A stretch of DNA of 64,000 nt, from the NCBI GenBank assembly GCA_025350465.1, contig JANXXU010000024.1:62001-126000 (forward strand). Reading direction: 5' to 3'. Both the position numbers and the translations under genes were made by a program. The notes beneath the pieces are model-generated. The model saw only the letters and a program-made list of their open reading frames with translations. It made no database searches and had not been told where the DNA came from. Source of the stretch: Alphaproteobacteria bacterium (GTDB lineage: Bacteria > Pseudomonadota > Alphaproteobacteria > Micropepsales > Micropepsaceae). Positions 7,211-38,861 of the stretch are shown here, piece after piece. Each line of letters begins with the position of its first letter. Positions within the stretch are counted from its first letter, which is position 1.

Positions 7211-7385
7211 CTTCGCATGTGCAGCAGAGATTGGGCGGAACCTGCGTCGCGCAGATGTCACGCGCAGGTGGAGATTGACCACTTGAACGCGCTCCTCGCG
7301 TGGCGGGCCCCCGGCGCGCGTGGCAGACTGACCGTCGGATTCGCGGTGAGGTTCGCATTCATCGCTTGAGCACGCGGGAAAAATC

Positions 7386-8846: not shown

Positions 8847-8896
8847 AGCGGCGGCCCAGTTCGTCGCAACCGGGTTCCGGATCGCGCAATGGACCT

Positions 8897-9877: not shown

Positions 9878-9894
9878 ATCGTGCGCGACCTCAC

Positions 9895-10515: not shown

Positions 10516-10617
10516 TGCGTGACCCTATCTGAGACCGACCGGAATTTCGGCACCAACTTAGCACACGACTTGACCCGTCGGTCGATGGTGCTGAACGGGC
10601 GCAGCAGCAGGGCGCGC

Positions 10618-11448: not shown

Positions 11449-11548
11449 GATCGCACTCCTCAACCGCGATGCGACCGGCGCGCATAGCTAAACCTGGGTT
11501 GGCCGCGAGAGTGAAGCACGCGAAGCGCTGCGCTCGCGATGATGCCCG

Positions 11549-12082: not shown

Positions 12083-12104
12083 CGTTCCCCGCGCTCCTTA
12101 GGTC

Positions 12105-12779: not shown

Positions 12780-12901
12780 CATTTCCCCCAAGGGCTTCCC
12801 CTTCCCAGCCTAGCACGCGACACAAACCCGGCTTCAAGGCTGAGATTTCGCCGATGCGCGGCGATGCTCTAGATTGGCAGGAGGTTGGGGGTTGATCGGG
12901 G

Positions 12902-13834
12902 ATGGCCAAGCGCGAATGGTCGGCTAGCGAGCGCGCGCGCCAGGCGCGCGCGGCGGCGGTCGTCTGCGCCATCGGCCTGCTTGGCGCGGCGGGCTTGGTC
13001 GTGTGGAAACACGCCGTCGGAGCCATTGCGCTCGATCCGGAACGCAATCTGACCTTGGTCGCATATCTCCTGTGTAATGCGGTTACGCTTTTCGCCGCCG
13101 CGCAACCGGCAAGAACCTTGAGCCGTCCGCTGAGTGTGCGCTTGGCCATCGCCGCCGTCCGGGGCGCTACGGTCAACGTCAGCGCGGCGGCGTTTTTCGC
13201 CATCGATTTGGCGCTTGTTTGGTCGGCGCTGTCCCAGAGCAGCGCGCCCGCCTGGGTTCTCGCGTTCCTCATTCCGGCTGGCGCATCGCTTTGGCTCTTC
13301 ATTGCCGGACTTGGCGTACCGGCGGAAGGGCCGGAGGAGATCAGCGATGAGGATCTGGCGGAAGCCGCCTTACTCTTGACCGAAAGTCATCGGCGCTGGT
13401 CATGGCAAGCAGTGTTCGCCATGGCCGGATTCATGGCCTTCACCCGCGCCGCGATTCTTGTCGCTTATTTCGCCTGGGTCGTCGCCGGAATGGCCATCTA
13501 TGAGTGGCTGCACAAGGCCTTCTTCGAAACGAGCCCGCTCGGCGACGGCGACTTGGGCGGCGTCGGCATTGCTGCGATCGGACAGGCTGGCGACCTTCTG
13601 ACCCGTGGCTGGCTTTGGGTCATCTTCTTCCTTGTCGTGATCCTTCCGCCGCTCTTCACCCTGGGCGCGGCGGTCTGGTATCGCTTTTGGCAGCGCCGGG
13701 ACCGCGTGCGTGCGCGCGCTCTATCCCGGTCGCCAGCCGCGCGCCTGATGACCAGACGCGAAGTTCGCTTGTTGCGCCGCGACGTCGAGCGGCCGGTTAG
13801 CGCGAGCCACATTCCGCAACGCGGCGTCTCTTAA
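12902..13834 (+). CDS. Multi-pass membrane protein of unknown function
   Basis: A 310-residue protein with about six hydrophobic segments, a charged acidic loop near residues 140-160 (PEEISDEDLAEAA) and a strongly basic C-terminal tail rich in Arg. No family recognised. Divergent from the Sel1-repeat gene, with 122 bases between them. Confidence 0.62.
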   Translation: MAKREWSASERARQARAAAVVCAIGLLGAAGLVVWKHAVGAIALDPERNLTLVAYLLCNAVTLFAAAQPARTLSRPLSVRLAIAAVRGATVNVSAAAFFAIDLALVWSALSQSSAPAWVLAFLIPAGASLWLFIAGLGVPAEGPEEISDEDLAEAALLLTESHRRWSWQAVFAMAGFMAFTRAAILVAYFAWVVAGMAIYEWLHKAFFETSPLGDGDLGGVGIAAIGQAGDLLTRGWLWVIFFLVVILPPLFTLGAAVWYRFWQRRDRVRARALSRSPAARLMTRREVRLLRRDVERPVSASHIPQRGVS

Positions 13835-14009
13835 CCTCTTCTTAAGCCTTCCAGGCTGAATTCAAAGCGAGCCCGCGCGACCGCGAGTCGGACGCTGGCC
13901 CTTGAGAGCATGCGCCTGCGCGCACTGCGAAGCGACACGCGACGGCGCCCCTCTCAACGCAACGCTCCGCCTACGGATTAACCCCGGGTTAACGCCAAGG
14001 ATTTCAGCC

Positions 14010-14981
14010 ATGACGACGCGACGCCGCTCCCCCAGAAAATTTCATTCACGGCATGTGTTCTCCGCGATGGGATTTATGGGCCTCCTCGTCAGCGCCACTG
14101 CGTGGGCGCATCAGGCGGGGCTCATCAACTGGCAATTGCCGGACTCGCTGGCAAGATCGCCGTTCGTCGTCAGTCGAACGCATATCACCCACCCGAACGC
14201 CGGCATTACCGCGGCGACCGCCACCGCGAGCGGCAGCGGCATGGGCACAGCCGCGGGTGCGTCGGACGCCAACTGCGCGGGCCAACTCCTGGGAGGAAAG
14301 GCGCCGACGCTGACGAACGACAAGCTCGCCGCAAAGACTCACCAACTCTGCTACTTGGGCTTTGCCGTTCTGAATTCCGGCATCACACGCACGCCGTTGT
14401 GGTCGGCCGAGCACCTGACCGCCAACCGCGTCGAAACCGCGCAAGGCCTGCCGCGCAAGAACAGCTTCCATGCGGACCCCAATCTGACGACCGATGAGCG
14501 CGCCGAGCTCAGCGACTACAAGGGCTATCCCTACGATCGCGGCCACATGGCCCCAAACGCCGACATGCCCGATGTCGTGTCGCAGAAGGAATGCTTCACG
14601 CTCGCCAACATGATTCCGCAGGACAAAGACAACAACGAGCATTTGTGGGCGCACATCGAGGAATCGGTGCGCAATCTCGCGGAGCGTGATGCCGACCTTT
14701 ATATCGTGACCGGACCGATCTTCGACGGCGATACGGTGAAAGAATTGCACGACCGGGTGATGGTGCCGACGAAAATATTCAAGGCGGTCTTTGACGCGAA
14801 GAAACAGCAAGCGGCGGCCTACATCGTCGACAACGCGCCAGGCGAGACCTACCGGGTCGTCACGATTGCCCAGCTCGAAACGATGACGGGGATCAAGGTC
14901 TTTCCAGGCCTACCGGCGAAGGTCGACACTTCCGCCAAGCTCGAATTGCCGGCGCCGCTGGCGTCCGATTTGATCAACTGA
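14010..14981 (+). CDS. Secreted DNA/RNA non-specific endonuclease
   Basis: A 323-residue protein of the beta-beta-alpha-Me (NucA/NucM) nuclease superfamily, which cuts DNA and RNA using one magnesium ion. The signature DRGHMAPN is at residues 176-183, with His179 as general base. The NMIPQ ... NNEHLW segment supplies the metal-binding Asn. An N-terminal hydrophobic segment ending in AWAH suggests export. The start ATG at 14010 has AAGGA eight bases upstream; an upstream extension of 36 codons in the same frame looks non-coding. No immunity gene is recognisable beside it, so a scavenging role is more likely than a toxin role. Confidence 0.9.
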   Translation: MTTRRRSPRKFHSRHVFSAMGFMGLLVSATAWAHQAGLINWQLPDSLARSPFVVSRTHITHPNAGITAATATASGSGMGTAAGASDANCAGQLLGGKAPTLTNDKLAAKTHQLCYLGFAVLNSGITRTPLWSAEHLTANRVETAQGLPRKNSFHADPNLTTDERAELSDYKGYPYDRGHMAPNADMPDVVSQKECFTLANMIPQDKDNNEHLWAHIEESVRNLAERDADLYIVTGPIFDGDTVKELHDRVMVPTKIFKAVFDAKKQQAAAYIVDNAPGETYRVVTIAQLETMTGIKVFPGLPAKVDTSAKLELPAPLASDLIN

Positions 14982-14994
14982 CGCGAGCACGCCG

Positions 14995-15234
14995 TTGAAG
15001 GTATTTCAAAACGAGTCGGAGGTTCTTCAACTGGGTAAGTTGACGATCGAGAACCGCACTGATCGCGTCACGATCTACGGCAGTCTCGACGTGACGCGGG
15101 ACAAGGCCGGATTGCAGGCGGTCAACGAACTCAAATCGGTGATCGATTCGATCGTCGCGTTTCTTGGCCGCGAAGACCTGCCCGACAAGATCGTCTTCGC
15201 GACGCCGAAGGAGAAGAAGAATCCGTTTTTGTAG
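14995..15234 (+). CDS. Small conserved hypothetical protein
   Basis: A 79-residue protein starting at TTG 14995, 13 bases after the nuclease stop. The sequence (KLTIENRTDRVTIYGSLDVT, then a helix with AVNELKSVIDSIVAF and a KNPF end) looks like the short conserved alphaproteobacterial protein often found without a name. No signal peptide or membrane segment. It is followed directly by a terminator. Start codon moderately certain. Confidence 0.65.
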   Translation: MKVFQNESEVLQLGKLTIENRTDRVTIYGSLDVTRDKAGLQAVNELKSVIDSIVAFLGREDLPDKIVFATPKEKKNPFL

Positions 15235-25167: not shown

Positions 25168-25409
25168 ACCGGTCCGCACTCGCTAGTCGAACGTGCAAAT
25201 TAAAAGCTCCCGAGAGCGCGGCGCTCTGCAGGGACGTACAGCGTGAGCCGCCGGTTCCAGGCTTCACGTGCTCGCCGGATGTAGCGGCGACGGCGAGAAT
25301 CAAAAATTCAGCCTCGAAAGAAACGCCACACGTCAATCGTCGCCGGAGCGAAGGCTTGCGGCATTGCGTCATATTTCATGTAATGCCTATTGGTATTGAT
25401 GTCCTACAC

Positions 25410-25655
25410 ATGATCACGTCCGGTCAGTTGCGGGCATCGCGAGCGCTGTTGGGCATCGATCAGCGCGAACTTGCGGAACTCTGCCGACTCTCCGTCCCCA
25501 CAATCCAACGCATGGAAGCCAGCGACGGCATCGTGCGCGGTACGGTCGATTCGCTCATGAAGCTCATCACCGCCCTGGAGCGAGCCGGCATCGAGGTCAT
25601 CGCCGCGGGCGCGGCCACTCAAAAGGGAGGACGCGGCGTGCGGTTACGCAAATAA
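25410..25655 (+). CDS. Small XRE-type helix-turn-helix regulator
   Basis: An 81-residue helix-turn-helix protein: SGQLRASRALLGIDQRELAE, then LCRLSVPTIQRMEASDG is the HTH unit, and ERAGIEVIAAG...GVRLRK is the common tail of this alphaproteobacterial family. An in-frame ATG at 25383 would add nine residues; neither start has a good ribosome site, and I prefer 25410 from the family N-terminus. It lies 58 bases before the hyf-like operon on the same strand and is its likely regulator, though not proven. Confidence 0.78.
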   Translation: MITSGQLRASRALLGIDQRELAELCRLSVPTIQRMEASDGIVRGTVDSLMKLITALERAGIEVIAAGAATQKGGRGVRLRK

Positions 25656-25713: not shown

Positions 25714-27726
25714 ATGACGATCGTCGCATCGCTCTGGTGCGTCGGGGCTTTCCTGGGGCTCAGTATCGTGGCGGTCGCCTGCGCCCGCTTGTCCGCGGCC
25801 AGCGCCATCGTTTACGCGGGATGTCTCATCGCCTCGACCGTCGGGCTCAGCGCCGGGCTCGAGCATCTGATCGCGGCGTCCGCGCCGCCGCAGACCTTGC
25901 AATTGCCGCTCGGACTGCCATGGCTCGGCGCTAATTTCAGAGTGGACATGCTGTCGGCGTTTTTCTTGCTGGTCGTCAATCTCGGCGGCGCCGCCGCAAG
26001 TCTTTTTGCGCTGGGATACGGTCAGCATGAGCAGGCGCCGCACCGCGTGCTGCCGTTCTTCGCCGCGTTTCTCGCCGGCATGAACCTTGTCGTTCTCGCC
26101 GACGATGCGTTCGCATTTCTCCTGAGCTGGGAGTTCATGTCGCTTGCGTCTTGGGCGTTGGTCATGGCGCACGACCGCGAGCCCGAGAATTTGCAAGCCG
26201 GATACATCTATTTGCTGATGGCGAGCTTCGGCACCGTCGCCCTGTTGCTGGCGTTCGGATTGTTGGCCGGCCCCGGCGGTTCCTATGCCTTTGCCGACCT
26301 TCGTTCGCATCCACCGTCGGATCAGGTTGCGGCGGCGGTTCTCGCTCTCGCGCTCATCGGCACCGGGTCGAAGGCGGGGCTTGTGCCGCTTCACGTCTGG
26401 CTGCCGCTCGCGCATCCCGCGGCGCCGAGCCACGTCTCCGCCTTGATGAGCGGCGTCATGACGAAGGTCGCGGTCTATGCCTTCGTGCGCATCGTCTTCA
26501 GCTTTCTGGGGCCGCCGGAGTCGTGGTGGTGCGTCCCGGTTCTCGTCGCGGGCGGGTCTTCGGCCGTCCTCGGCGTTCTCTATGCGCTCAACCAAGGCGA
26601 TTTGAAGAAGCTCCTTGCCTACAGCACGATCGACAATATCGGCATCATCTTCATCGGCCTCGGCCTCGCCCTCGCTTTCCAAGCAAACGATCTGGGCCAG
26701 GCCGCAGCTTTGGCGATGACGGCGGCGCTGCTTCACGTATTCAACCACTCCTTGTTCAAGAGCCTGCTGTTCTTCGGCGCGGGCGCCGTTCTCGGCGCCA
26801 CGGGCGAGCGCGACTTCGAGCGCCTTGGCGGACTCATCCACACGATGCCGGTGACCGCGTTCCTGTTCCTGGTGGCGAGCGTCGCGATCTGCGCACTGCC
26901 CCCGCTCAATGGCTTCGTCTCGGAGTGGCTGACGTTTCAGGCGGTGCTGATCAGCCCGCAGCTTCCGCAATGGGGCTTGCGCTTTCTCGTGCCGGCGATT
27001 GGCGCGCTCCTGGCGCTCGCGGCTGCGCTGGCCGCCGCGTGCTTCGTCAAGGCATTCGGCTTTGCGTTCCTCGGGCGCGCGCGAAGCGAGGCGGCGAAGC
27101 AAGCGCGTGAGACCGACGCATTTTCAGTTGCCGGCATGTTCTGCCTCGCCGGCTTGTGCGCGTTCGCCGGAATCCTGCCGGGCTTCATCATCGATCGGAT
27201 CGCGCCGGTCACGCAATTGCTGCTCGATAGCCGGTTGCCGGTGCAAGCCGACGTGCCGTGGCTGTCGATCATTCCGATTAGCCAGAGCCGCAGTTCCTAT
27301 AACGGGCTCTTGGTGTTTGTGTTCATCCTGATTTCCTCGCTTGGCGCTATCGAGGCGATCCACCGGCTGGCATCGCGGCGCGTGCGCCGCGCGCCGGCAT
27401 GGGATTGCGGTTTTCCAGACGCGGCGCCGTCGACGCAGTACTCGGCCGGAAGTTTCGTGCAACCGCTGCGGCGGGTCTATGGCACGTTGATTTTCCTCGC
27501 GCGGGAAACGGTTCGCATGCCGGCACCCGGCGATACCGCACCGGCGAGCTTCCGTGTCGACATCCAAGATCTGGCTTGGCGATTTATCTACACGCCGATC
27601 GTGAGCAGCGTGAACATCGTCGCCGATCGGCTGAACTATCTGCAATACATGACCATCCGGCGATATCTCGCGCTCGTCTTCTCTGCGCTCATTTTCCTCT
27701 TGATCGTGCTGGCGTCATGGCCCTGA
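25714..27726 (+). CDS. hyfB: Hydrogenase-4 subunit B-like antiporter subunit (NuoL-type)
   Basis: A 670-residue protein with about 16 helices, related to NuoL and Mrp antiporter subunits. The proton channel core is readable: LSWEFMSLASWALVM, then KAGLVPLHVWLPLAHPAAPSHVSALMSG, and KKLLAYSTIDNIGIIFIGLG with the key lysines and the His pair region HVFNHSLFKSLLFFGAGAV. The C-terminal cytoplasmic segment CGFPDAAPSTQYSAGSFVQPLRR is specific to the HyfB/HycC branch. First gene of the complex; the last 10 bases overlap hyfC. Confidence 0.92.
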   Translation: MTIVASLWCVGAFLGLSIVAVACARLSAASAIVYAGCLIASTVGLSAGLEHLIAASAPPQTLQLPLGLPWLGANFRVDMLSAFFLLVVNLGGAAASLFALGYGQHEQAPHRVLPFFAAFLAGMNLVVLADDAFAFLLSWEFMSLASWALVMAHDREPENLQAGYIYLLMASFGTVALLLAFGLLAGPGGSYAFADLRSHPPSDQVAAAVLALALIGTGSKAGLVPLHVWLPLAHPAAPSHVSALMSGVMTKVAVYAFVRIVFSFLGPPESWWCVPVLVAGGSSAVLGVLYALNQGDLKKLLAYSTIDNIGIIFIGLGLALAFQANDLGQAAALAMTAALLHVFNHSLFKSLLFFGAGAVLGATGERDFERLGGLIHTMPVTAFLFLVASVAICALPPLNGFVSEWLTFQAVLISPQLPQWGLRFLVPAIGALLALAAALAAACFVKAFGFAFLGRARSEAAKQARETDAFSVAGMFCLAGLCAFAGILPGFIIDRIAPVTQLLLDSRLPVQADVPWLSIIPISQSRSSYNGLLVFVFILISSLGAIEAIHRLASRRVRRAPAWDCGFPDAAPSTQYSAGSFVQPLRRVYGTLIFLARETVRMPAPGDTAPASFRVDIQDLAWRFIYTPIVSSVNIVADRLNYLQYMTIRRYLALVFSALIFLLIVLASWP

Positions 27727-28673
27727 TCCCCGAGCTCATTGTCCAAGGCGTGCAGATGTTTCTGGTGCTTGCACTGGCGCCGGCGCTCGTCGGCTTCGTG
27801 CGGAAGGTCAAGTCGCAACTATTGCGCCGGCAGGGGCCACCGATCGTTCAGCCCTATCGCGATTTGATCCGGCTGCTGCGCAAAGACGTCGTGCTTGCGC
27901 ACAACGCCTCGTGGCTCTTCCGCGCGGCGCCTTACTTGATCTTCGCGGCAACTTGGGTTGCGGCCGCTCTGGTGCCGACCTTCGCCGCGGGCCTCATGTT
28001 CAGCTGGAGCGCCGACCTCGTCGCCATCATCGCGCTCCTCGGCAGCGCGCGGTTCTTCCTTGCCCTCGCAGGCCTCGACGTCGGCACGAGCTTTGGCGGG
28101 ATCGGCTCCAGCCGCGAAGTCATGTTCGCATCTCTGGCCGAGCCGGCTTTGATTGTCATCGTGTTCACGCTGGCGATGATTGCGGGGTCGACGCAACTGT
28201 CGACCATAGCGAGCTTCATGGCATCGTCGGCGGTAGGCTTGCGCGTGTCGTTGGGCCTCGCGCTGATCTCACTGGTCATCGTCGCGCTCGCCGAGAACGC
28301 CCGTATCCCCGTCGACAATCCGGCCACCCATCTCGAACTCACCATGGTCCACGAAGCGATGGTGCTCGAATACTCGGGACGTCATCTGGCACTCGTCGAA
28401 CTCGCGTCGTGGCTCCAATTGCTCGTCTATGTCTCGCTGATCGGTTGCATTTTTTTTCCATGGGGATTGACGGCTGCGGGAACGAGCCCCGGCGGCTATC
28501 TGGCAGGCCTTGCGGCTTACGTTCTGAAACTCGTCGCCAGCGGCGTGTTGCTGGCGACGTTTGAAGTCACGATCGCCAAGATGCGCGTTTTCCGCGTGCC
28601 CGAATTCGTCGGCGTCGCGCTCATGCTGGCGTTGCTCGCGATGTTGCTGCGTTTCGTGTCGAGCAGCCTATGA
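27717..28673 (+). CDS. hyfC: Hydrogenase-4 subunit C-like membrane anchor (NuoH-type)
   Basis: A 318-residue NuoH-like subunit with about eight helices. ARRQGPPIVQPYRDLIRLLRKD is the conserved first loop (here read as LRRQGPPIVQPYRDL), and ENARIPVDNPATHLELTMVHEAM is the quinone-site loop signature with its conserved acidic residues. It would link the soluble module to the antiporter subunits. The start ATG at 27717 lies inside the end of hyfB. Confidence 0.93.
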   Translation: MALIPELIVQGVQMFLVLALAPALVGFVRKVKSQLLRRQGPPIVQPYRDLIRLLRKDVVLAHNASWLFRAAPYLIFAATWVAAALVPTFAAGLMFSWSADLVAIIALLGSARFFLALAGLDVGTSFGGIGSSREVMFASLAEPALIVIVFTLAMIAGSTQLSTIASFMASSAVGLRVSLGLALISLVIVALAENARIPVDNPATHLELTMVHEAMVLEYSGRHLALVELASWLQLLVYVSLIGCIFFPWGLTAAGTSPGGYLAGLAAYVLKLVASGVLLATFEVTIAKMRVFRVPEFVGVALMLALLAMLLRFVSSSL

Positions 28674-29335
28674 AACACGACTTCTTCTTCGATGTGGCGC
28701 ACATGCTCGCGGGCGGCCTGGTGCTCGTCAGCTTCCTGATGCTCTACCAAGACCGGCTCTATGCGCTCATCAACGTCTTCGCCCTTCACGCCTTCGTGCT
28801 GGCGCTGTCCGTCGCTTGGCAAGCCTTCATCCAAGACGCGCCGCATCTCTACGTCACGGCGGTGATCGCGCTCGGCTTCAAAGCCATCGTCATTCCGGTG
28901 GCGCTTCATCGCATCGTCGAGCGGCTCGGTATCCACCGTGAAATCGAAACCGTGGTGAATATCGGCGTGACGATGCTGGGTGGCATCGGCCTCGTCGCGT
29001 TGGCGATGGTGGTGATGCTGCGCGTGACGCCAACGGCCGACGCTTTGGCGCGCGAGGATCTGGCCTTCGCACTCTCGGTCCTGCTCCTCGGTCTCTTGAT
29101 GATGGTGACGCGGCGCAATGCGGTGAGCCAGGTCATCGGCTTCATGTCGCTCGAAAACGGCTTGATTCTGGCGGCAACGGGCGCCAAGGGCATGCCGCTG
29201 GTGGTCGAGATCAGCGTCGCCTTCTCGGTCTTGATCGCCTTCATCGTGATCGGAATCTTCTTGTTTCGGATTCGCGAGCGTTTCGACACCGTCGACCTGC
29301 AGGCACTCGACAGCTTTCGCGGGGACAGCGAATGA
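28670..29335 (+). CDS. hyfE: Hydrogenase-4 component E-like (NuoK-related)
   Basis: A 221-residue membrane protein with about six helices; the C-terminal half resembles NuoK (LMMVTRRNAVSQVIGFMSLENGLIL, with the membrane glutamate). ATGA overlaps on both sides (hyfC stop and hyfF start) show tight coupling. In the known complexes this subunit forms part of the proton path between NuoH- and NuoN-like subunits. Confidence 0.9.
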   Translation: MKHDFFFDVAHMLAGGLVLVSFLMLYQDRLYALINVFALHAFVLALSVAWQAFIQDAPHLYVTAVIALGFKAIVIPVALHRIVERLGIHREIETVVNIGVTMLGGIGLVALAMVVMLRVTPTADALAREDLAFALSVLLLGLLMMVTRRNAVSQVIGFMSLENGLILAATGAKGMPLVVEISVAFSVLIAFIVIGIFLFRIRERFDTVDLQALDSFRGDSE

Positions 29336-30780
29336 ACTTGGGCCCGTTCGATCCCGTCGTCGCCATTCTCGCCATCCCGGCGGGCGCGGCGATCCTGCTC
29401 GCGCTGCTCCCCGGCTATCTGGCGACGTCGCGGCTCAATGTGCTCGCCTCATTCTCGACCTTCGTCTCGGCCTTCACACTTTTCTTTGCGCCGCACCGGC
29501 AAAGCCAATTCTTCCTGATCGACGACGTGAACATCGTCTTCGTCACGCTGACGACCTTCGTCGCCTTCACCACCAGCGTCTTCAGCGCCAGCTATATCGG
29601 GCACGAACTGGAGAGCGGGCGTTTGACGCCCGTCTATTTGCGCTTCTATCACGCGATGTATCAGGTGCTGATGCTGGCGATGAACTTGGCGCTGGTTGCG
29701 AACAATATCGGCCTCATGTGGGTCGCGATCGAGATGGCGACGCTGACGACCGTGCTGATGGTCGGCATTTATCGCACGCCCGCGGCGATCGAGGCGGCGT
29801 GGAAATATTTTATCCTGGGAAGCGTCGGCATCGCGCTCGCGCTGTTCGGCACGATCCTCGTTTATATGGCGGCGCGACCGACAGTCGGCGAAGGCCTCGA
29901 CGCGATGGCGTGGACGACTCTTGTCGCTCATGCGTCGACGTTCGACCCGGCGCTTTTGAATGTCGCGTTCGTTTTCTTGCTGCTGGGTTATGGAACCAAG
30001 GTCGGTTTGGCGCCGCTCCACGCGTGGCTTCCCGATGCGCACGCCGAGGGCCCGACGCCGATTTCGGCTGTGCTGTCGGGCCTGCTGCTGAACGTTGCGC
30101 TTTACGCGCTGCTGCGCTTCAAGCTTTTGATGGCGACCAATCCCGGCGCGATCGCGACCGGCTCGCTGATGGTGGCGATGGGACTTCTGTCGGTGGTGTT
30201 CGCGAGTTTCATGCTCTATCGCCGCCGCGACATCAAACGGCTCTTCGCTTATTCCTCGATCGAACATATGGGGATCATCACGTTCGCATTCGGCATGGGC
30301 GGACCGCTCGCGAACTTCGCCGGGCTCTTGCATATGACAATGCATAGCCTGACGAAGTCGGCGATTTTCTTCGCCGTCGGCCATATCTCGCAGATCAAGG
30401 GAACTCAGAAGATCGCCGATATTCGCGGCCTGACGGAGACGCATCCGATTCTGGGCTGGGGCCTTGTTCTCAGCGTCGTCGCGATAGCCGGTCTGCCGCC
30501 GCTCGGGATCTTCATGAGCGAATTCTTGGTCGTCACCTCTACCTTTGCGCGCGAGCCGGCACTTGCCATCATCTTGGTGTTCGGCGTCATTCTGGCGCTC
30601 GGCGCGCTATTCTTACGCTTGAATAGCGTCGCCTTCGGCGAGCCCACCGGCAGCAGGGCGCCGTCGCAAGCTTCCTATGTGCCGATGTATGCGCATCTGG
30701 CGTTGGTAACCATCGCCGGCATCTATTTGCCGCCGCCGCTCGTCACCTGGTTTCAACATGTCGCGCGGTTGTTGGGATAG
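29332..30780 (+). CDS. hyfF: Hydrogenase-4 subunit F-like antiporter subunit (NuoN/M-type)
   Basis: A 482-residue second antiporter-like subunit with about 14 helices. Core segments: WVAIEMATLTTVLMVG (membrane glutamate), GTKVGLAPLHAWLPDAHAEGPTPISAVLSG (lysine and loop signature), RRRDIKRLFAYSSIEHMGIITFAFGMGG, and LTKSAIFFAVGHI. It overlaps hyfE by four bases and ends three bases before the large subunit gene. With hyfB it gives the complex two ion-pumping subunits. Confidence 0.92.
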   Translation: MNLGPFDPVVAILAIPAGAAILLALLPGYLATSRLNVLASFSTFVSAFTLFFAPHRQSQFFLIDDVNIVFVTLTTFVAFTTSVFSASYIGHELESGRLTPVYLRFYHAMYQVLMLAMNLALVANNIGLMWVAIEMATLTTVLMVGIYRTPAAIEAAWKYFILGSVGIALALFGTILVYMAARPTVGEGLDAMAWTTLVAHASTFDPALLNVAFVFLLLGYGTKVGLAPLHAWLPDAHAEGPTPISAVLSGLLLNVALYALLRFKLLMATNPGAIATGSLMVAMGLLSVVFASFMLYRRRDIKRLFAYSSIEHMGIITFAFGMGGPLANFAGLLHMTMHSLTKSAIFFAVGHISQIKGTQKIADIRGLTETHPILGWGLVLSVVAIAGLPPLGIFMSEFLVVTSTFAREPALAIILVFGVILALGALFLRLNSVAFGEPTGSRAPSQASYVPMYAHLALVTIAGIYLPPPLVTWFQHVARLLG

Positions 30781-30783
30781 CGG

Positions 30784-32280
30784 ATGAGCACGGCGGTCAG
30801 CGCACTCATGAGCGAAGGACGTGCGGTGGCGCAACACCGCCCGTGGCCGCGTGTGGTCGTCTCGGCGAAGGCGTGGATAGGTATGACGAACGCGCTCGTC
30901 GAAGGCCGGCTGACCTTGCTCGGGCTTTGGGGCGAAACGACCGCGATCCACGCAGCACTCATCGCGTCTGAAACGAATGAGATTTGCGTCGCGTCGCTCG
31001 AATGTCCGGATGGGCGCTATCCATCGATCGGCAAAGCGCACCCGCCTGCGATCAGACTGGAACGCGCGGCGAAGGATTTGTTCGGACTGACGCCGATGGA
31101 GGCGCACGATACACGGCCGTGGCTCGACCACGGGCGTTGGAAGCGCGGCGTGGAGGAACCTGGTGCGCCGCCGCCCTATCCGTTCTTGACCTCAGAAGGC
31201 GAAAGTCTTCATCAAATTCCCGTCGGCCCCGTCCACGCCGGCATCATCGAGCCCGGGCACTTCCGCTTCACGGCGAACGGCGAGACCGTTGTGCGTCTCG
31301 AAGAGCGGTTTGGCTACGCCCACAAAGGTATCGAGACGCTGATGGCGGGCGCCACCATCGATCGCGCGGCACGCTTGGCGGGACGCGTGTCGGGCGATTC
31401 CACCGTCGCCTACGCTCTTGCATTCGCGCGCGCGGTCGAAAGCGCGCTGGAAATCGAAGCTCCGCCGCGCGCCCAATTGCTGCGCGCCTTGATGGCGGAG
31501 TTCGAGCGGCTTGCCAATCATTTCGGCGATTTCGGCGCGATCTGCAACGATGCGTCGTTTGTCTTGATCCATGCCCATTGCGGCGTGCTGCGCGAAGGCG
31601 TGCTGCGCCTTGCCGAGCGCTGCTTCGGCCATCGCTTGATGATGGATCGCATCGTTCCGGGCGGCGTGGCGAACGATTTGGATACGGGCGCGCCGGCCGC
31701 GATCATCGCCTTCATCGCCGAGGCGCGCACGCGCTTTAAACACCTCGTCTCGCTCTATGACACGACCGCCTCGCTGCAAAATCGCACCGTGACGACGGGG
31801 ATTTTGTCGCCGACGCTTGCCCGCCAGTTCGGCGCGGGCGGTTATGTCGGACGCGCCTCGGGCCGCGCGTTCGATGCGCGGCGCACGCCGGGATATGCGC
31901 CGTATCTCGACCTTCGCTTCGAGGTGCCGGTGTTGACCCACGGCGATGTCGATGCGCGCGTGTGGATTCGCATTCGCGAGGTCGAGCAGAGTTTCGGTTT
32001 GATCGAACAAATTCTGAACAGGCTCGAAGCAGGGCCGCTGACGGCGTCACTCGCGGCGCGCGACGAGGCGCACGAGGGGATAGCGCTGGTCGAAGGTTTT
32101 CGCGGCGACATCTTGGTTTGGCTGCGTCTTGAGAACGGCGTCGTGTCGCGCTGTCATTTGCGCGACCCGTCTTGGTTTCAATGGCCGCTGCTGGAGGCGG
32201 CGATCGAAGGCAACATCGTCGCCGACTTTCCGCTCTGCAACAAATCGTTCAACTGCTCTTATTCCGGTCACGACCTTTAG
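30784..32280 (+). CDS. hyfG: NuoC/NuoD fusion subunit (HyfG-like) lacking [NiFe] ligands
   Basis: A 498-residue fusion. Residues 65-120 are NuoC-like (LECPDGRYPSIGKAHPPAIR, RAAKDLFGL, DTRPWLDHGRW). Residues 145-498 are the NuoD/hydrogenase large-subunit fold (ERFGYAHKGIETLM). Group 4 [NiFe] hydrogenases have R-[IV]-C-G-I-C-S near residue 203; here it reads RVSGDSTVAY, so both cysteines are serine (Ser203, Ser206). The C-terminal DPCxxC is replaced by FPLCNKSFNCSYSGHDL. A [NiFe] centre therefore cannot form. It belongs to the hydrogenase-related (Ehr-like) group whose reaction is unknown. Confidence 0.9.
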   Translation: MSTAVSALMSEGRAVAQHRPWPRVVVSAKAWIGMTNALVEGRLTLLGLWGETTAIHAALIASETNEICVASLECPDGRYPSIGKAHPPAIRLERAAKDLFGLTPMEAHDTRPWLDHGRWKRGVEEPGAPPPYPFLTSEGESLHQIPVGPVHAGIIEPGHFRFTANGETVVRLEERFGYAHKGIETLMAGATIDRAARLAGRVSGDSTVAYALAFARAVESALEIEAPPRAQLLRALMAEFERLANHFGDFGAICNDASFVLIHAHCGVLREGVLRLAERCFGHRLMMDRIVPGGVANDLDTGAPAAIIAFIAEARTRFKHLVSLYDTTASLQNRTVTTGILSPTLARQFGAGGYVGRASGRAFDARRTPGYAPYLDLRFEVPVLTHGDVDARVWIRIREVEQSFGLIEQILNRLEAGPLTASLAARDEAHEGIALVEGFRGDILVWLRLENGVVSRCHLRDPSWFQWPLLEAAIEGNIVADFPLCNKSFNCSYSGHDL

Positions 32281-32288
32281 GAATCGAC

Positions 32289-32807
32289 ATGCGTACGCTC
32301 CTGCTTGAAGGCATTGTGAAGGCGCCGCTGACCGAGCCGGCGCCAACGCCGGACCCGGCCGCACTTGCCGAAATCGGCTCCCGTGTCGATGCGGCGGCGA
32401 AGAAGCGGCTCGGGCGCAGCTTGTCCATCCGCCAAGTCGACGCCGGCTCATGCAACGGCTGCGAACTGGAGATTCATGCGCTCAGCAATGCCTTCTACGA
32501 CCTCGAGCGCTTCGGACTGCGCTTCGTGGCCTCGCCGCGCCATGCCGACGTCTTGATGGTGACTGGACCGGTCACGGCGAACATGCGCGAGGCCCTCGAA
32601 CGCACGTACATGGCGACCCCCGATCCGAAATGGGTGGTTGCGATCGGCGATTGCGCCGTCGACGCCGGGATCTTCGCCGGCAGCTACGCGGTCGTCGGCG
32701 GTGTGTCAGCGGTCATTCCTGTCGACTTGCACATCCGCGGCTGTCCGCCGAATCCGCTTGCTTTGCTCAAAGGTCTGCTCGCACTCGTCGAGAGCAGCGC
32801 GGAGTGA
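32289..32807 (+). CDS. hyfI: NuoB/HyfI-like iron-sulfur subunit
   Basis: A 172-residue small subunit that should carry the N2-type [4Fe-4S] cluster. Ligands: Cys55 and Cys58 (GSCNGCELE), Cys122 (AIGDCA) and Cys152 (RGCPPNP); all four are intact. The CxxC spacing is of the hydrogenase type rather than the tandem CC of complex I. The ATG at 32289 lies eight bases after the hyfG stop. Last gene of the cluster; no NuoI/HyfH- or HyfA-like ferredoxin gene follows. Confidence 0.92.
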   Translation: MRTLLLEGIVKAPLTEPAPTPDPAALAEIGSRVDAAAKKRLGRSLSIRQVDAGSCNGCELEIHALSNAFYDLERFGLRFVASPRHADVLMVTGPVTANMREALERTYMATPDPKWVVAIGDCAVDAGIFAGSYAVVGGVSAVIPVDLHIRGCPPNPLALLKGLLALVESSAE

Positions 32808-32891: not shown

Positions 32892-33533
32892 ATGGCGAGC
32901 GCGATTAGTGCCGAGGCCGCGACGACCGGCCAAAGCCTCGATGCGGCGCATCGCGGATTGCTCGCCGATCCGTCGCTGCAATTCCACTTTGCTCCGCCCG
33001 AGGCGCTGCCGCCGCCACCCGAATGGTTGCAAGCATTGGGCAAATTCCTGAGTCTGTTTGGACCGGCGCTGAACTATATTTTTTGGGCGGGCGTCGCGAT
33101 CATCGCCGCCCTCATTCTTTACGCCATCGCGCGGGAGATCATTCGGCGCCTGCCGGGAACGATGGGTCCAACGGCGACGCCCGAGGCCCCGGCTGCTGCC
33201 GAATTTCGCCCCACCCAAGCGCGGGCCCGCGCTCTTCTCGAAGAGGCCGACCGTCTGGCGCGCGAGGGACGTTACGGCGAGGCCGCGCGCGTTCTCCTCC
33301 ACCGCAGCATCGACGACATCGAAGAGACATTCCCGACGCTCATTGCGCCCAGCCTGACCGCGCGCGAGATCGGGCGGCTTGAGCAATTGTCTGCCAGCGG
33401 GCGGGCCGTCTTTGTGAAAATAGCGCGCGCGGTCGAAACGAGCTTGTTCGGCGGCCGGCCGCTCGATGCGCCACAGTTCGCAGAATGCCGTCGCGCCTAT
33501 GCCGATTTCGTCTTCGGGGCGGCCGGCCAATGA
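32892..33533 (+). CDS. DUF4129 domain-containing membrane protein
   Basis: A 213-residue protein with one transmembrane helix near residues 55-82, a Pro-rich linker and a C-terminal DUF4129 segment: ARALLEEADRLAREGRYGEA, LLHRSIDDIEE, and LTAREIGRLEQL. AGGAG lies five bases before the ATG. It opens a six-gene operon (DUF4129, DUF4350, MoxR, DUF58, SpoIIM, RDD) with overlapping genes. Such DUF4129 proteins regularly accompany MoxR/DUF58 pairs; function unknown. Confidence 0.8.
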   Translation: MASAISAEAATTGQSLDAAHRGLLADPSLQFHFAPPEALPPPPEWLQALGKFLSLFGPALNYIFWAGVAIIAALILYAIAREIIRRLPGTMGPTATPEAPAAAEFRPTQARARALLEEADRLAREGRYGEAARVLLHRSIDDIEETFPTLIAPSLTAREIGRLEQLSASGRAVFVKIARAVETSLFGGRPLDAPQFAECRRAYADFVFGAAGQ

Positions 33534-34747
33534 CCGAAGCCGGTACAGCGCGCGGGCAAATGTTTTCGGCGCGCGTCGTCATCGCGCTTCTGATCGTCGG
33601 TGTGTTCTCGTTCTCGGCGTTCGTCACGCTTTCAACGTTTGCACCCGACTTCAATCGCGGCGACAACGGGGCCGCGCATGCCTTGTCACGCTCGGCGGTC
33701 GGGTTTGCCGGAGCCGTCGAGCTGGCGCGCTCGCTCGGCACCAAGGTCAGCATCGATCGCGCACCACGCAATGGTGAAAGACTGCGAACGCTGACGATAC
33801 TGACCCCTCAAGCGAAACTAACGCGTGAGCAGATAAAGAGGCTGAGCGGGCTCGCAACGCTGGTGATCTTGCCCAAATGGGTTGCGGCGCCTTTGCAGGC
33901 TCATCCGGGCTGGGTCTCGCGCATCACCACGATGGATGAGAACTCGGTCGCAGACATCCTCGGCGAGATCGCGCCCCATACCAAAATCTCGCGGGCGAAG
34001 ACCGGCGCAGCAGCCGCGCTGCACTTCAACAGCGACGGTGCGGATTTCGTGTCCGGCGCGATCGCGGAATTGCAGAGTGTTTCCCCCGACGACCTCGACG
34101 CGATCGTGACGGCGAAAGACGGCCGCATCATCCTGGGAGAGACGCGGCAGGCGCCCGGGATCTATGTTCTCGCCGATCCCGATTTTCTGAATACGCAAGG
34201 GCTCGCCGATCTCGCCACAGCGCGGGTCGGCATTGCAATGCTCGACGTGATGCGCGACGGCGAGCCGATCGCGTTCGATGTCACCCTCAACGGGCTCGAG
34301 CGCGCGCGCAATCTCCTTCGCTTGGCGCTGACACCGCCGCTGCTTGGCGCGACGCTCGCCCTGTTTGCGGCGGCAGCGCTGCTGGCCTGGCGCGCAGTGA
34401 TGCAGTCCGGGCCGCGCGTGAGACCGGGCCGGGCGATCGCGCTCGGCAAGCGCGCGCTCGCTGAGAACTCAGCGGCGCTGATCCGCCTGGCCAGGCGCGA
34501 GTATACGATGGGTTGGCGCTACGCGGTCTTGACGGCAGCAAGTGCCGCCGAACAAATCGGGGCGCCGCGCACCGAGAGCGCCGAGACATTCGCCATGCTC
34601 GATCGCGTCGGCGCGACGCAAGGATTGGCGCGCCCGTTCTCGACGTTGGCGAGCGAAGCCGCACATGCACGTAATTCCGCCGAAGTCGTCACGGCGGCCC
34701 GTCGACTTTATTCCTGGACCGAGGAGATGCTGCGTGCAACTCGCTGA
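33530..34747 (+). CDS. DUF4350 domain-containing protein
   Basis: A 405-residue protein: one N-terminal membrane helix (residues 15-35), an extracytoplasmic DUF4350 domain ([45 protein letters not shown], and [23 protein letters not shown]), and a second helix near residue 270 followed by a helical cytoplasmic tail. The ATG overlaps the previous stop by four bases. DUF4350 resembles a glutamine-amidotransferase-like fold without catalysis; role unknown. Confidence 0.82.
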
Positions 34748-35690
34748 ACTTCGCCCGCTCGCCGATCGCATTCGCGCCGAAATCGCCAAGGCGATCGTGG
34801 GTCAGGCGGACACCGTGGATCTGATGCTGACCGCGCTTTTCGCCGGGGGGCACATTCTTTTGGAAGGTCCACCGGGAACGGCGAAGACGCTGCTGGCGCA
34901 GTGTTTCGCCCACACGCTCAACCTGCAATTCGGACGCATTCAATTCACGCCGGATTTGATGCCCGGCGACATCCTGGGCTCGAACTTGTTCAATTTTCAG
35001 ACGAACGCGTTCAGCTTGACCAAGGGCCCGATCTTTTGCGACCTGCTGCTGGCCGACGAAATCAATCGCACGCCGCCCAAGACACAAGCGGCACTCCTCG
35101 AGGCGATGCAAGAACGCGGCGTGACGCTTGACGGGAGGCGCAATCCGTTGAGCCCGCGCTTTACCGTCATCGCCACGCAAAACCCGATCGAACAGCAAGG
35201 CGCCTACCCTCTGCCCGAGGCGCAGCTCGACCGGTTTCTGTTCAAGCACGTGCTCTCTTACCCGAGCGTCGACGAGGAGCGCCGCATCGTCGCCGAGCAT
35301 GGTTTGGGCACGCGCACCCACGACGTGACGGCGTTGGGCATCACGACCGTCGTAAGCGCGGAGGACCTCAATGCCGCCGTGGCGACAGCCTCGCAAACGC
35401 GGCTGACCGCCGAGGTGATCGACTATGTCGTGCGCATCATTCGCGCGACGCGGGAAGCCACGACCTTCGAACTCGGTGCCTCGCCACGCAGCGGCGCAAT
35501 GTTGGCGTCGGCGGCGCGCGCCCGCGCGGCGCTCGACGGGCGCGACTATGTCATTCCCGACGACGTCAAAGTTCTCGCCGCGCCGGCGTTGCGTCATCGC
35601 GTGCTCCTGTCGCCGGCGGCCGAGATCGAAGGGCGAACGACCGACGCGGCGCTCAAGACCATCCTCGAGCAGACCGAAGCCCCCAGATGA
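34734..35690 (+). CDS. MoxR-family AAA+ ATPase
   Basis: A 318-residue MoxR ATPase. Walker A GPPGTAKT is at residues 45-52, Walker B is LLLADEINR, sensor 1 is [24 protein letters not shown], and the C-terminal lid has [18 protein letters not shown]. MoxR proteins remodel or insert metal into partners, often with VWA-type proteins such as DUF58. The start is GTG at 34734 with GAGGAG seven bases upstream, giving a 14-base overlap with DUF4350. The stop overlaps DUF58. Confidence 0.95.
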
Positions 35691-37003
35691 TCTCGCCAAC
35701 GAGCCGCGCCATTCTGTTGGCCGCGTTGGGTGCGCCGCTGGCTCTCGTTCTCGTCGCTCTCGCGCCTCAGGCGTGGCCGATCGGCCCGGCGTGGGCCATC
35801 GCAATGGCGGCGCTGATCTTCGTCGACGGGCAAATGGCGGGCGACACGTCGCAACTCAAGCTCGCAACCAATGCGCCCAGATTTACCGGCATCGGAGCCG
35901 GCGCCTTCGCCGTGTTGGTTCGCATCGGATTTGCAACGCCGCATATGCCGAAGACGGCCGAAGTTGCGCTCGAAGCGAGCCCTCTCTTCGACGTAACGCC
36001 AACGCGGCGCGAGCCGACGATTGAAGACGGAGTTGGCGAAGCCAAGTTCGAGCTCACGCCGAAACGGCGCGGCGAGGGCCGTTTGGAGAAGGCTTTTGTA
36101 CGCTGGCGCGGTCCCCTCGGCCTGGCGTGGCGGCAACATGAGGCGGCACTCGAGCACGGGATCGCGATCACAACAGATCTGGGCTCGATCGAGCGATACG
36201 CGCAGCGCCTGTTCTCGCGCACGTTCATCCACGGGCTCAAGCCGATGCGCGACCGCGGCGACGGATCGGAATTCGACGCGCTGAGCAAGTTTCAACAAGG
36301 CATGGACCGGCGGCTGATCGATTGGAAGCAAAGCGCGCGGCACTTGAACCTCCTCGCCAAGGAAGTGCGGGCCGAGCGCAATCATCAACTCGCCTTCGCC
36401 ATCGATACCGGACGGCTGATGTGCGAGCCGATCGACGGTACGCCGCGCGTCGACCGCGCGCTGAACGCGGCGCTGATGTTGGCTTACGTCGGGCTGAAGC
36501 TTGGGGATCGCGTGAGTTTCTTCGGCTTCGATGCGCGGCCCCATTTGGCGACGGGCTTCGTCTCGGGCGCCGGCGCCTTCGGTCAATTGCAGGCACTGAC
36601 GGCAAAACTCGATTATTCGAGCGAGGAAACCAATTTTACGCTGGGCCTCTCGACGCTTGCCGAACGGCTCAAGCGGCGCTCGATGGTCATCGTCTTCACA
36701 GATTTCGCCGATACGATCAGCGCCGAACTGATGGTGGAAAACATCACACGGCTCACGCGCCGGCACATGATCGTGTTCGTGACGTTTCGCGACGAGGAGT
36801 TGGAGACTTTGCGTTCCGTGCGACCGCAAACGGCGGACGACGTTTCGCGCGCGGTCATCGCCCATCAACTGCTCCATGAGCGCGACATCGTGCTGACACG
36901 ATTGCGCCGCCTCGGCGTCCATATCGTCAGCACGAAGATCGATCAGCTGGGTCCGGAATTGGTTCGGGCGTACGACGAGTTGCGCCGGCAGGAGCGCGTT
37001 TAG
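35687..37003 (+). CDS. DUF58 domain-containing protein (VWA-like)
   Basis: A 438-residue protein with two N-terminal hydrophobic segments and a DUF58 domain: [20 protein letters not shown], then [19 protein letters not shown] is the signature, followed by a VWA-like core ([25 protein letters not shown]). It is the standard partner of MoxR; the pair overlap by four bases. Probably membrane-bound with the VWA part on the cytoplasmic side. Confidence 0.92.
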
Positions 37004-37005
37004 CG

Positions 37006-38004
37006 ATGGACGAGACGGGCTTGCGCAGCCTTCGCTTTCGCCGCGAGCGGGAGGAATCTTGGCGCCACCTCGAAAAGCTGCTTGCGCAGGTCGAGCGGCG
37101 ATCGGCGCGCAGCCTCAGCGACGAAGACATGGTGGCATTTCCGGCGCTTTACCGTGCGGCGCTGTCGTCGCTCTCGGTGGCGCGGGCCACATCGCTCGAT
37201 CAAGCGCTGATCGACTATCTGGAGGCGTTGTGCGCGCGGGCGTATTTCTTCGTCTACGGCGCGCGCACGACGCTCATCGGCCGCATCGAGCGATTCTTCG
37301 CGCATGATTGGCCGGCGGCGGTCAGAAACCTGTGGCGCGAGACGCTGGTCTCGGGGTTGATCATGCTTGCCGGCGCCATCACCGCCTTCGCGCTCGTCTC
37401 GGCCGATGCGGATTGGTTTTCGGCCTTTGTGCCGGAAGCGCTGGCCGGCGGGCGCGATCCGACCGCAACGACCCAAGCTTTACGCGAAACGCTCTATGCG
37501 CCGGCCGACGCGCACAGTGCGCTCAGCGTCTTCGCGACCTTTCTGTTCACCCATAACGCCCAGATTTCGATTTTCGCCTTCGCGCTCGGCTTTGCCTTTT
37601 GCCTGCCGAGCGCGATGCTGATCGCCTATAACGGCTGCATGCTGGGCGCGATGATTGCGTTGTTCGCGAGCCACGGCCTGGGCTTCGAATTCGGCGGCTG
37701 GGTGTTCATTCACGGCGTGACCGAGCTCTTCGCGGTGACGCTCGCGGGGGCCGCAGGCCTTCGCATCGGCTGGTCGATCGCCTTTCCCGGCGATCTGACG
37801 CGCGTGGCGGCGGCGGAGCGCGCGGGCCGCAACGGCGCGGTCGTGATGCTCGGCGTCGTGGTCATGCTGTTTTTCGCTGGGCTACTGGAAGGCGTCGCGC
37901 GCCAACTCATCACCTCGGACATCGTGCGCTGGGCGATCGGGCTCACGACAGGCGTCGCGTGGGCCTTGTATTTCTATCGTGGCCGGACCGGCGAGGTCCG
38001 ATGA
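37006..38004 (+). CDS. SpoIIM/stage II sporulation M-like membrane protein
   Basis: A 332-residue protein with a helical N-terminal cytoplasmic part and about five to six helices. The family core is readable: THNAQISIFAFALGFAFCLPS, IAYNGCMLGAMIALFA, and FIHGVTELFAVTLAGAAGLRIG (the H-G-x-x-E motif). Despite the name this family is widespread in non-sporulating bacteria and couples with MoxR/DUF58/RDD operons. It begins two bases after the DUF58 stop. Confidence 0.88.
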   Translation: MDETGLRSLRFRREREESWRHLEKLLAQVERRSARSLSDEDMVAFPALYRAALSSLSVARATSLDQALIDYLEALCARAYFFVYGARTTLIGRIERFFAHDWPAAVRNLWRETLVSGLIMLAGAITAFALVSADADWFSAFVPEALAGGRDPTATTQALRETLYAPADAHSALSVFATFLFTHNAQISIFAFALGFAFCLPSAMLIAYNGCMLGAMIALFASHGLGFEFGGWVFIHGVTELFAVTLAGAAGLRIGWSIAFPGDLTRVAAAERAGRNGAVVMLGVVVMLFFAGLLEGVARQLITSDIVRWAIGLTTGVAWALYFYRGRTGEVR

Positions 38005-38861
38005 CCGAGGCGATTGCCGAGGGGTCGGTGCGCGCGCTGATCACGCCCGAAGGGGTCGACCTGCGGGTGCGCCTCGCGCCGGTGAGCGAACGCGCGCTCG
38101 CACTGATCACGGATCTGGCGGTGATCGCCGGCATTCTGGTTGCGCTCACGTTCGCGACGCTGGGCGCGATGTCGGCCATGAACATCGAGGAGCCTCGCGC
38201 TGCGGCTGAGATCATCTGGCTGCTGGGGTTTTTTCTGCTGCGCAATTTCTACTTCACGCTGTTCGAATGCGGCGCGCGTGCGGCAACGCCCGGTAAGCGC
38301 CTGATGGGCTTGCGCGTGGTGGCGCGCGACGGCGGCGTGTTGAGCGCGGACGCAGTCGTCGCGCGCAACGCGATGCGCGAACTCGAACTCTATCTGCCGG
38401 TCAGTTTTCTGGTGTCACGCGGAACGGAGATCGATGCCTGGGTCATATTGTCGGGAATCGTGTGGTGCGGGACCTTCGTGCTGTTTCCCTTTTTCAATCG
38501 CGACAAGCTGCGGGCGGGCGACCTGGTCGCGGGGACGTGGGTGCTCAAAGCACCCAAGCCCGTGCTGCTCCCGGATCTTGCGGAACAGGGCACGGCGCGC
38601 GCCGTCTTCGCCTTCAACGCGGCGCAGCTCGGCGTTTACGGCGTGAAGGAGCTACAGGTGCTCGAGTCCGTTTTGCGCACCGGCGAGCCCAGCGCACTCC
38701 AGGCCGTCGCCGAACGCATTCGCGCCAAAATCAACTGGCTCAAGGGCGCCACCGAAGAGGACGGTGATTTTCTCAACGCCTACTACGCCGCGCTACGTCG
38801 GCATCTGGAACATCGCCTGCTCTTCGGCACGCGCAAACGCGACAAGCACGACCGCTCGTAA
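38001..38861 (+). CDS. RDD family membrane protein
   Basis: A 286-residue RDD-domain protein: SERALALITDLAVIAGI holds the conserved Arg and Asp of helix 1, ATPGKRLMGLRVVARDGG is the central signature, and FNRDKLRAGDLVAGTWVL closes the domain. The C-terminal 90 residues are soluble and helical. ATGA overlap with the SpoIIM-like gene. Last gene of the operon, convergent with the gene at 38865. Confidence 0.9.
   Translation: MTEAIAEGSVRALITPEGVDLRVRLAPVSERALALITDLAVIAGILVALTFATLGAMSAMNIEEPRAAAEIIWLLGFFLLRNFYFTLFECGARAATPGKRLMGLRVVARDGGVLSADAVVARNAMRELELYLPVSFLVSRGTEIDAWVILSGIVWCGTFVLFPFFNRDKLRAGDLVAGTWVLKAPKPVLLPDLAEQGTARAVFAFNAAQLGVYGVKELQVLESVLRTGEPSALQAVAERIRAKINWLKGATEEDGDFLNAYYAALRRHLEHRLLFGTRKRDKHDRS

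Follow-up and report, generated by a model that had tools for sequence, protein, structure and literature searches.

What can a membrane complex do that keeps the architecture of a hydrogenase after the loss of its [NiFe] site? This question is raised by a six-gene operon at positions 25714-32807 of a 64,000-nucleotide stretch of alphaproteobacterial DNA (positions 62,001 to 126,000 of contig JANXXU010000024.1, assembly GCA_025350465.1), which is hereafter called the window. By the features tested, the encoded complex is a member of the hydrogenase-related (Ehr) group, that is, of a known group and not a new kind of complex; published Ehr complexes enter this comparison by description only. 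In the literature, Ehr complexes are described as lacking [NiFe]-binding motifs, with a function that is called unknown (PMC10284858, PMC4378227) or open (PMC10432482), and such proteins are considered likely unable to interact with H2 (PMC7304191). The answer put forward here, as a tentative one that falls somewhat short of probable, is a redox-driven ion pump without [NiFe], in which electrons would pass from a soluble ferredoxin through a single [4Fe-4S] cluster and the former [NiFe] pocket to quinone.

Loss of the [NiFe] site

The operon is compact, with neighbouring open reading frames (ORFs) overlapping or nearly so, and the ORFs and their NCBIfam and Pfam matches agree with the gene order HyfB/C/E/F/G/I and the subunit kinds given by an earlier sequence-only reading of the window. 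The genes, together with a small regulator gene ahead of them, are as follows (aa, amino acids; HTH, helix-turn-helix):

25714..27726, + strand: HyfB-like antiporter-like subunit, 670 aa (NCBIfam NF005086, hydrogenase 4 subunit B, 855.7 bits; cut-off 667)
27723..28673, + strand: NuoH/HyfC-like membrane anchor, 316 aa (PF00146)
28670..29335, + strand: HyfE-like subunit with a NuoK-like C-terminal part, 221 aa (NF008556, 82.6 bits, below the cut-off of 136; PF00420, 19.4 bits, below the cut-off of 26.1)
29332..30780, + strand: HyfF-like antiporter-like subunit, 482 aa (NF005043, hydrogenase 4 subunit F, 871.4 bits; cut-off 533)
30784..32280, + strand: large subunit, a NuoC/D-like fusion, 498 aa (PF00346; nearest solved relative HycE)
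32289..32807, + strand: NuoB/HyfI-like small subunit, 172 aa, with one [4Fe-4S] site (PF01058)
25383..25655, + strand: small HTH regulator of the XRE type, ahead of the operon (Pfam HTH_3 match; start codon chosen by the authors)

The solved chain nearest to the large subunit is HycE of Escherichia coli (PDB 7z0s, E 7e-77), which is also ranked first by Foldseek, and its ligands C241, C244, C531 and C534 align onto S203, S206, S492 and G495 of the window protein. The motif RVSGDST with Ser203 and Ser206 and the C-terminus CNKSFNCSYSGHDL are both present as first reported, and no canonical CxxC pair is found in the protein. The same positions were compared in 81 large subunits, namely that of the window and those of the 80 best of 581 confirmed stretches, whose loci also form the set of 81 used below: Ser203 is found in 79 of the 81, whereas Ser206, Ser492 and Gly495 are found in all, and the two sequences with Cys at position 203 (CGDS, in L028 and L044) still have Ser at position 206. 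Because the substitutions are conserved across the 81 sequences, the ligand replacement in the window is, on this alignment, neither chance nor a sequencing error, and the earlier claim that the large subunit cannot bind [NiFe] is upheld.

HycI cleaves HycE after Arg537. Since the window large subunit ends at the position aligned with R537, where the large-subunit homology of HycE stops, no C-terminal extension is left to be cleaved; HycE residues 182-537 are those that match the large subunit (PMC9474812). The host genome, which is 98.31% complete, yielded neither HypD, the sole Hyp family searched, nor any further [NiFe] large subunit, and a second set of maturation and ferredoxin genes dedicated to the operon, which would have told against the earlier claim, did not appear. 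Because all four ligands are replaced and the host has neither a recognisable HypD nor another [NiFe] subunit, the complex is, as judged from residues and gene content, not a hydrogenase. HypD was found in 6 of 27 genomes with a window-type complex and not in the other 21; these are 27 of the 28 carriers then known, with G027, which is missing from the HypD, NuoF and RnfC searches alike, and the diverged G062 and G172 left out. In one of the 6, G031, about 9 kb separate HypD from a true Hyf-type subunit, which has the motif CGIC. The likeness to HycE might also be expected of a cryptic [NiFe] hydrogenase in which serines replace the cysteines; however, with four ligands gone and HypD not found in the host or in most carriers, the chance that this explanation holds is negligible.

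The true Hyf-type large subunit of G031, which also carries a window-type Ehr complex, is located at 8653-10383 of locus L148 (G031:C100:10001-30000); the neighbouring frame of 1128 aa, from 10382 onwards, looks by eye like a fusion of a ferredoxin part with a formate-dehydrogenase-like one.

Two cysteines near the C-terminus of the large subunit, Cys485 (81 of 81) and Cys491 (80 of 81), are off register with the [NiFe] ligands, since the counterparts of HycE C531 and C534 are S492 and G495. A new metal site at these cysteines was considered and rejected as a ligand set for the whole group, as the two positions are held by Ile or Thr and by Leu in the beta- and actinobacterial relatives L137, L138 and L142; within the window's clade, the pair may have a clade-specific role.

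Placement among related complexes

Alignment of the large subunit with group 4 hydrogenases and NuoD, followed by tree construction as proposed in the sequence-only reading, sets the Ehr-like rows apart from the [NiFe] rows and NuoD. In this unrooted tree of 54 rows, a starred branch separates HycE, HyfG, a third [NiFe] row and NuoD from the window clade, on whose side two betaproteobacterial rows, one actinobacterial row and two fluoride-linked rows are also found. L141, L139, L092, L137 and NuoCD form long branches, for which the joining of L139 with L141 is flagged, and the highly diverged rows L130 and L131 stand inside the window clade on a very long branch. The main group is marked by the signatures RxSGD[ST] and NKSFNxSYxGxDL, from which a few rows depart. 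The Ehr-type identity proposed earlier is borne out by a group 4-like large subunit without CxxC motifs, encoded in the same cluster as antiporter-like and NuoH-like subunits.

Published Ehr complexes likewise combine a group 4-like large subunit without [NiFe] cysteines with Hyf/Nuo-like membrane subunits, and the window gene set resembles the syntenic genes described for Sulfobacillus. Anatomically, nothing separates the window complex from them; what is said here of the C485/C491 pair and of the HTH gene applies to the window clade only. E. coli formate hydrogenlyase and hydrogenases 3 and 4 have membrane subunits of the same kinds as the window complex, which corresponds to Hyf minus HyfD, and much of their proton path is retained in it; in contrast to Hyc and Hyf, the window complex lacks the [NiFe] cysteines, HyfA/HyfH, HyfD and the C-terminal extension, and no HypD was found in its genome. 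With complex I it has in common the fold and the layout of Q-module and membrane arm, whereas its operon is devoid of NuoA, E, F, G and I and hence of the NADH module. The beta1-beta2 loop carries E156 (81 of 81), as in hydrogenases, where complex I has His, and the small subunit shows the C-x2-C of hydrogenases in place of the adjacent cysteine pair of complex I.

Archaeal Mbx, with a ferredoxin-linked reaction, is counted among the hydrogenase-related complexes, and a complex of formate dehydrogenase with Ehr (FDH-Ehr) has been proposed for other phyla (PMC6349859). The portions of the open-licence literature used here contain no tested reaction for any Ehr complex other than archaeal Mbx/MBS, and no description of the alphaproteobacterial operon of the window.

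Relatives of the large subunit occur in at least 581 stretches, some of which are perhaps other homologues. Across the 81 loci, subunits with more than 35% identity were recognised for B in 74, C in 74, E in 76 and F, G and I in 81 each; the gene order is mostly B-C-E-F-G, several loci end at contig ends, and the carriers are, by their record titles, mostly alphaproteobacteria with some beta- and gammaproteobacteria. A highly diverged six-gene set, 22-39% identical to that of the window, is found at 8374-15166 on the minus strand of locus L147 (G062:C1:749001-767000), in a stretch of 36% G+C; as far as a low-identity alignment allows, it lacks the Lys and Glu residues of the antiporter type and most acidic residues of the NuoH type, with the four cluster cysteines retained. 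Genome G172 has a large and a small subunit similar to those of L147.

Retained cluster, proton path and membrane arm

The small subunit carries cysteines 55, 58, 122 and 152, exactly as the sequence-only reading had stated; C55, C58 and C152 occur in all 81 sequences and C122 in at least 97% of them, with the hydrogenase-type spacing noted above. The retention of these four cluster cysteines argues for a redox function. The proton path described for HycE (PMC9474812) is largely retained as well, with E193, H284, R395, E437 and R478 of HycE corresponding to E156, H246, R357, E399 and R440 of the window protein, each in 80 or 81 of the 81 sequences. Asn490 (81 of 81) takes the place of the canopy residue Asp529 of HycE, and Ile that of D192, the second acidic residue of the beta1-beta2 loop; D205 is present in at least 97%.

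In the membrane arm, E140, K220, K349 and E404 of the HyfB-like subunit are invariant (70 of 70), as are E134, K223 and E397 of the HyfF-like subunit (75 of 75) and E140, D198, E205 and E216 of the NuoH-like subunit (71 of 71). The latter also has H203 throughout (71 of 71), at a position of Glu in HyfC, HycD and NuoH, and mostly Ala201 in place of another NuoH-type Glu. So, judged by these residues, the hydrophilic arm still appears equipped for a single cluster and for proton chemistry, and the membrane arm still suited to moving ions; because the residues of the ion path are retained, ion pumping by the window complex is likely. The mapping of sites rests on alignments; distances in the AlphaFold model of the large subunit, which has a mean pLDDT of 79.2 and is unreliable at 118-181 and 475-498, were left unused.

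Retention of Ehr in a genome with a decayed complex I

A sample of 250 genomes of the class contains 22 Ehr carriers at a cut of more than 500 bits, with the diverged G062 and G172 not counted. One of the 22, G183, has a genome of 0.9 Mb that is listed as 100% complete, with 35% G+C in the Ehr contig. Its Ehr genes B, E, F, G and I are open frames, the C frame is split across two contig ends, and 31 of 31 key positions checked are unchanged; nuoB, nuoC and nuoD, on the contig with the HyfB-like gene, are present only as truncated fragments broken by stops and frameshifts. No NuoD match beyond Ehr was found in G183, and no NuoF, which was found in the other 28 of 29 genomes searched (those with the window-type or the diverged complex); searches of G183 for HypD, heme-copper oxidase (COX1) and RnfC likewise gave none. 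Complex I has decayed in this genome while Ehr stayed. Ehr is thereby able to persist where complex I decayed, and its retention in so shrunken a genome suggests a still working, energy-saving electron pump.

The candidate partners in G183 are few. A search of the whole genome with one ferredoxin family gave four places, namely a 64-aa YfhL-like 2[4Fe-4S] ferredoxin (80.4 bits, below the cut-off of 86), FixX, GlpC and FrdB. An operon resembling fixABCX gives model matches to Etf beta, Etf alpha, FixC and FixX, all below the curated cut-offs, whereas FrdA, FrdB, GlpA and GlpC are matched above theirs; GlpABC-like genes are present, and a gene of the Sdh_cyt type precedes FrdA. Nitrogenase was looked for by its NifH motif only, in 616 kb out of about 900 kb, and was not found. 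FixABCX, the ferredoxin and fumarate reductase could supply reduced ferredoxin and provide a quinone-linked sink; on the simplest reading, G183 would respire anaerobically, with FixABCX making reduced ferredoxin, Ehr taking it and the resulting quinol feeding fumarate reductase.

The opposite direction of flow has also been considered, in which the proton-motive force would drive quinol electrons uphill to ferredoxin and provide aerobes with a low-potential reductant. Many carriers are rhizobia, which have an aerobic life style; NuoF is present in all genomes searched with the complex or its diverged form except G183, and it is not obvious why cells with complex I would need another quinone reductase that runs forward. 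However, G183 keeps the complex, yet neither a heme-copper oxidase nor a working complex I was found there from which a large proton-motive force could come, and such a reverse machine is considered unlikely.

Electron entry in fluoride-linked and fused relatives

Two distant relatives place Ehr-type genes behind fluoride riboswitches. In L141, on a plasmid of Burkholderia cenocepacia, a riboswitch at 5167-5237 directly precedes a NuoH-like gene (at 5477), and the Ehr-type subunits form a complete set there, with crcB, a diphosphatase, a DUF190 gene and a CLC-type gene as neighbours. In L139, on a plasmid of Alicyclobacillus, a riboswitch at 8624-8684 is followed by a large-subunit gene at 8830, and no other Ehr subunit was found within the 19 kb stretch. 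Fluoride riboswitches above the gathering score number seven in L141 and six in L139, within about 19 kb each. In the tree, both large subunits stand on the side of the window clade; they are without the CxxC motifs of [NiFe] enzymes and about 30% identical to that of the window. By name, the operon of L141 and the gene of L139 would count as formate hydrogenlyase, yet they lack the [NiFe] cysteines. A fluoride link for the window's own complex was rejected, as no riboswitch of family RF01734 was found in the window (15-45 kb), in the host genome or in the available stretches of the 81 window-clade loci.

The NuoB-like subunit of L141 carries a fused N-terminal 2[4Fe-4S] domain. In L007, a second, partial complex lies just upstream of the window-type operon, and its NuoB-like subunit likewise has an N-terminal 2[4Fe-4S] domain. 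Electron entry through a ferredoxin domain on the NuoB-like subunit is therefore apparently used elsewhere in the Ehr group, and because the window type lacks this domain, a free ferredoxin may by analogy take its place. The upstream complex of L007, at 2-3400, consists of an L141-like large-subunit end, the ferredoxin-NuoB fusion and an antiporter-like subunit, and the window-type Ehr operon follows at 4912-12063; the stretch of L007, which starts inside the upstream complex, shows no riboswitch.

The fluoride-linked loci bear on a further explanation, according to which the complex is a non-redox ion exchanger whose hydrophilic arm is structural or regulatory. It would agree with the presence of Ehr-type genes amid fluoride-resistance ion transporters at two distant loci and with the lack of a donor, an acceptor or [NiFe]; nevertheless, the cluster cysteines are retained in the window clade and even in the highly diverged L147 set with its lost antiporter lysines, and an exchanger of this kind is regarded as very improbable.

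Proposed reaction and competing explanations

We infer both the donor and the acceptor of the pump proposed here. A 2[4Fe-4S] ferredoxin, as the most likely soluble carrier of low potential, would dock on the NuoB-like subunit at the place of HyfH/NuoI and reduce the sole [4Fe-4S] cluster. Electrons would then move to the former [NiFe] pocket, which in the alignment is lined by S203, D205, S206, N490 and S492 and, in the window clade, also by C491, and where quinone is the most likely acceptor. Protons could be donated through E156, R440, H246, E399 and R357, in the role that their counterparts have in HycE, and coupling through subunits C, E, F and B would move H+ or Na+.

Several observations weigh against this proposal. 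On the acceptor side, the quinone site of complex I is missing, with Glu for His in the beta1-beta2 loop, and loop L1 reads RxSGDS, not the DY motif of NuoD; parts of the pocket have a pLDDT below 50 in the AlphaFold model, so that no pocket or tunnel can be drawn from modelling. Complex I is also present in nearly every genome examined (in the host, NuoD and NuoF are on contig C6), and because of this the complex may, in aerobes, run in reverse or serve a special condition. On the donor side, when the host was searched for a lone 2[4Fe-4S] ferredoxin, as the sequence-only reading had suggested, one FdxA-like small ferredoxin was recognised and no other, with a 510-aa frame on contig C31 set aside. 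FixX was not found in the host at more than 57 bits, where the sole match lies in a 565-aa frame, nor in 18 of the 22 carriers of the class sample, the window's host among them. In G183, the ferredoxin could serve something else, and ferredoxin domains were searched there across the genome with one family only. Finally, no iron-sulfur, flavodoxin or molybdopterin family is seen by eye among the gene neighbours that recur in at least 6 of the 81 loci.

With FixX scored as present at more than 57 bits (8 of 250 genomes, among the matches listed), it occurs in 4 of 22 carriers and 4 of 228 non-carriers (Fisher p 0.0025, with kinship ignored). FixABCX as an obligate partner was rejected on this count of 4 carriers in 22.

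The operon, as the earlier reading had it, is without a ferredoxin subunit, since no NuoI, HyfH or HyfA gene lies between or after its six genes; the one C-x2-C-x2-C-x3-C pattern found at 12 kb or less from the start of the large-subunit gene belongs to an ORF of low complexity. Among the 81 loci, a ferredoxin-like motif lies within 12 kb in 12, and in four of these (L007, L009, L031 and L046) it looks real by eye. In 65 of the 68 loci that extend 800 bp or more beyond the 5' end of the B gene, the gene immediately upstream of B is an HTH homologue. Neighbour families, which were counted when recurring in at least 6 of 81 loci and named by eye without a family search, include an ABC-transporter ATPase, a LacI-type regulator, an acyl-CoA synthetase and others, as well as an SDR-type dehydrogenase (12 of 81) and an FAD-binding protein (6 of 81, 4-6 genes upstream), both of which as a rule do not adjoin the operon. 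A fixed partner gene besides the HTH gene was rejected, with no iron-sulfur family among these recurrent neighbours.

A spermidine-synthase-like gene, also named by eye, is at most 2 genes from the operon in 17 of 81 loci, and annotated spermidine synthase genes lie near the operon on plasmids of Variovorax and Burkholderia (L138 and L142). Directly downstream of the window operon, 32892-38861 holds DUF4129 and SpoIIM matches and an AAA-type ATPase, apparently unrelated to it.

Electrons could alternatively be delivered by a dehydrogenase encoded elsewhere, for example a formate dehydrogenase, that would attach to the complex in the manner of formate hydrogenlyase. About 63 kb before the operon, the same contig of the host encodes a molybdopterin enzyme with ferredoxin domains at its N-terminus, and the FDH-Ehr proposal for other phyla (PMC6349859) points the same way; on the other hand, the operon is without connectors of the HycF/HycB type and, as stated, without a recurrent molybdopterin neighbour, which leaves this route quite improbable.

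The acceptor, too, could be something other than quinone, namely a small polar molecule, such as a sulfane sulfur compound as in MBS or another substrate, held in the Ser/Asn/Cys-lined pocket. The pocket loops (NKSFNxSYxGxDL and RxSGD[ST]) are strongly conserved and polar, and the sulfane sulfur reductase MBS is likewise derived from group 4, having lost its [NiFe] site and gained new chemistry at the proximal cluster (PMC7684303). However, MBS has two large-subunit cysteines and its chemistry requires a three-cysteine cluster (PMC7684303), whereas the window complex has no aligned ligand cysteine and retains four cluster cysteines, and no sulfur family was recognised by eye among the recurrent neighbours; a small polar acceptor is hence judged unlikely, and quinone is kept as the acceptor of the ferredoxin-fed pump.

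Implications for the Ehr group

Complexes of the Ehr type are widespread (the at least 581 stretches given above), with a function that is called unknown in the published texts cited (PMC10284858, PMC4378227). It is a speculative extension, and a rather doubtful one, that Ehr of the window type is a stripped-down, ferredoxin-fed and quinone-reducing ion pump that can substitute for complex I under anaerobic conditions, and that the "formate hydrogenlyase" genes of fluoride regulons are, at least partly, Ehr pumps that restore proton-motive force and pH and not hydrogenases that oxidise formate. A concrete and testable proposal for the function of Ehr and one informative genome are now at hand. 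The retention of Ehr in G183 as complex I decays is a natural experiment with a short list of partners, and because the list is short, donor and acceptor become testable; the finding also bears on the route from hydrogenase to complex I.

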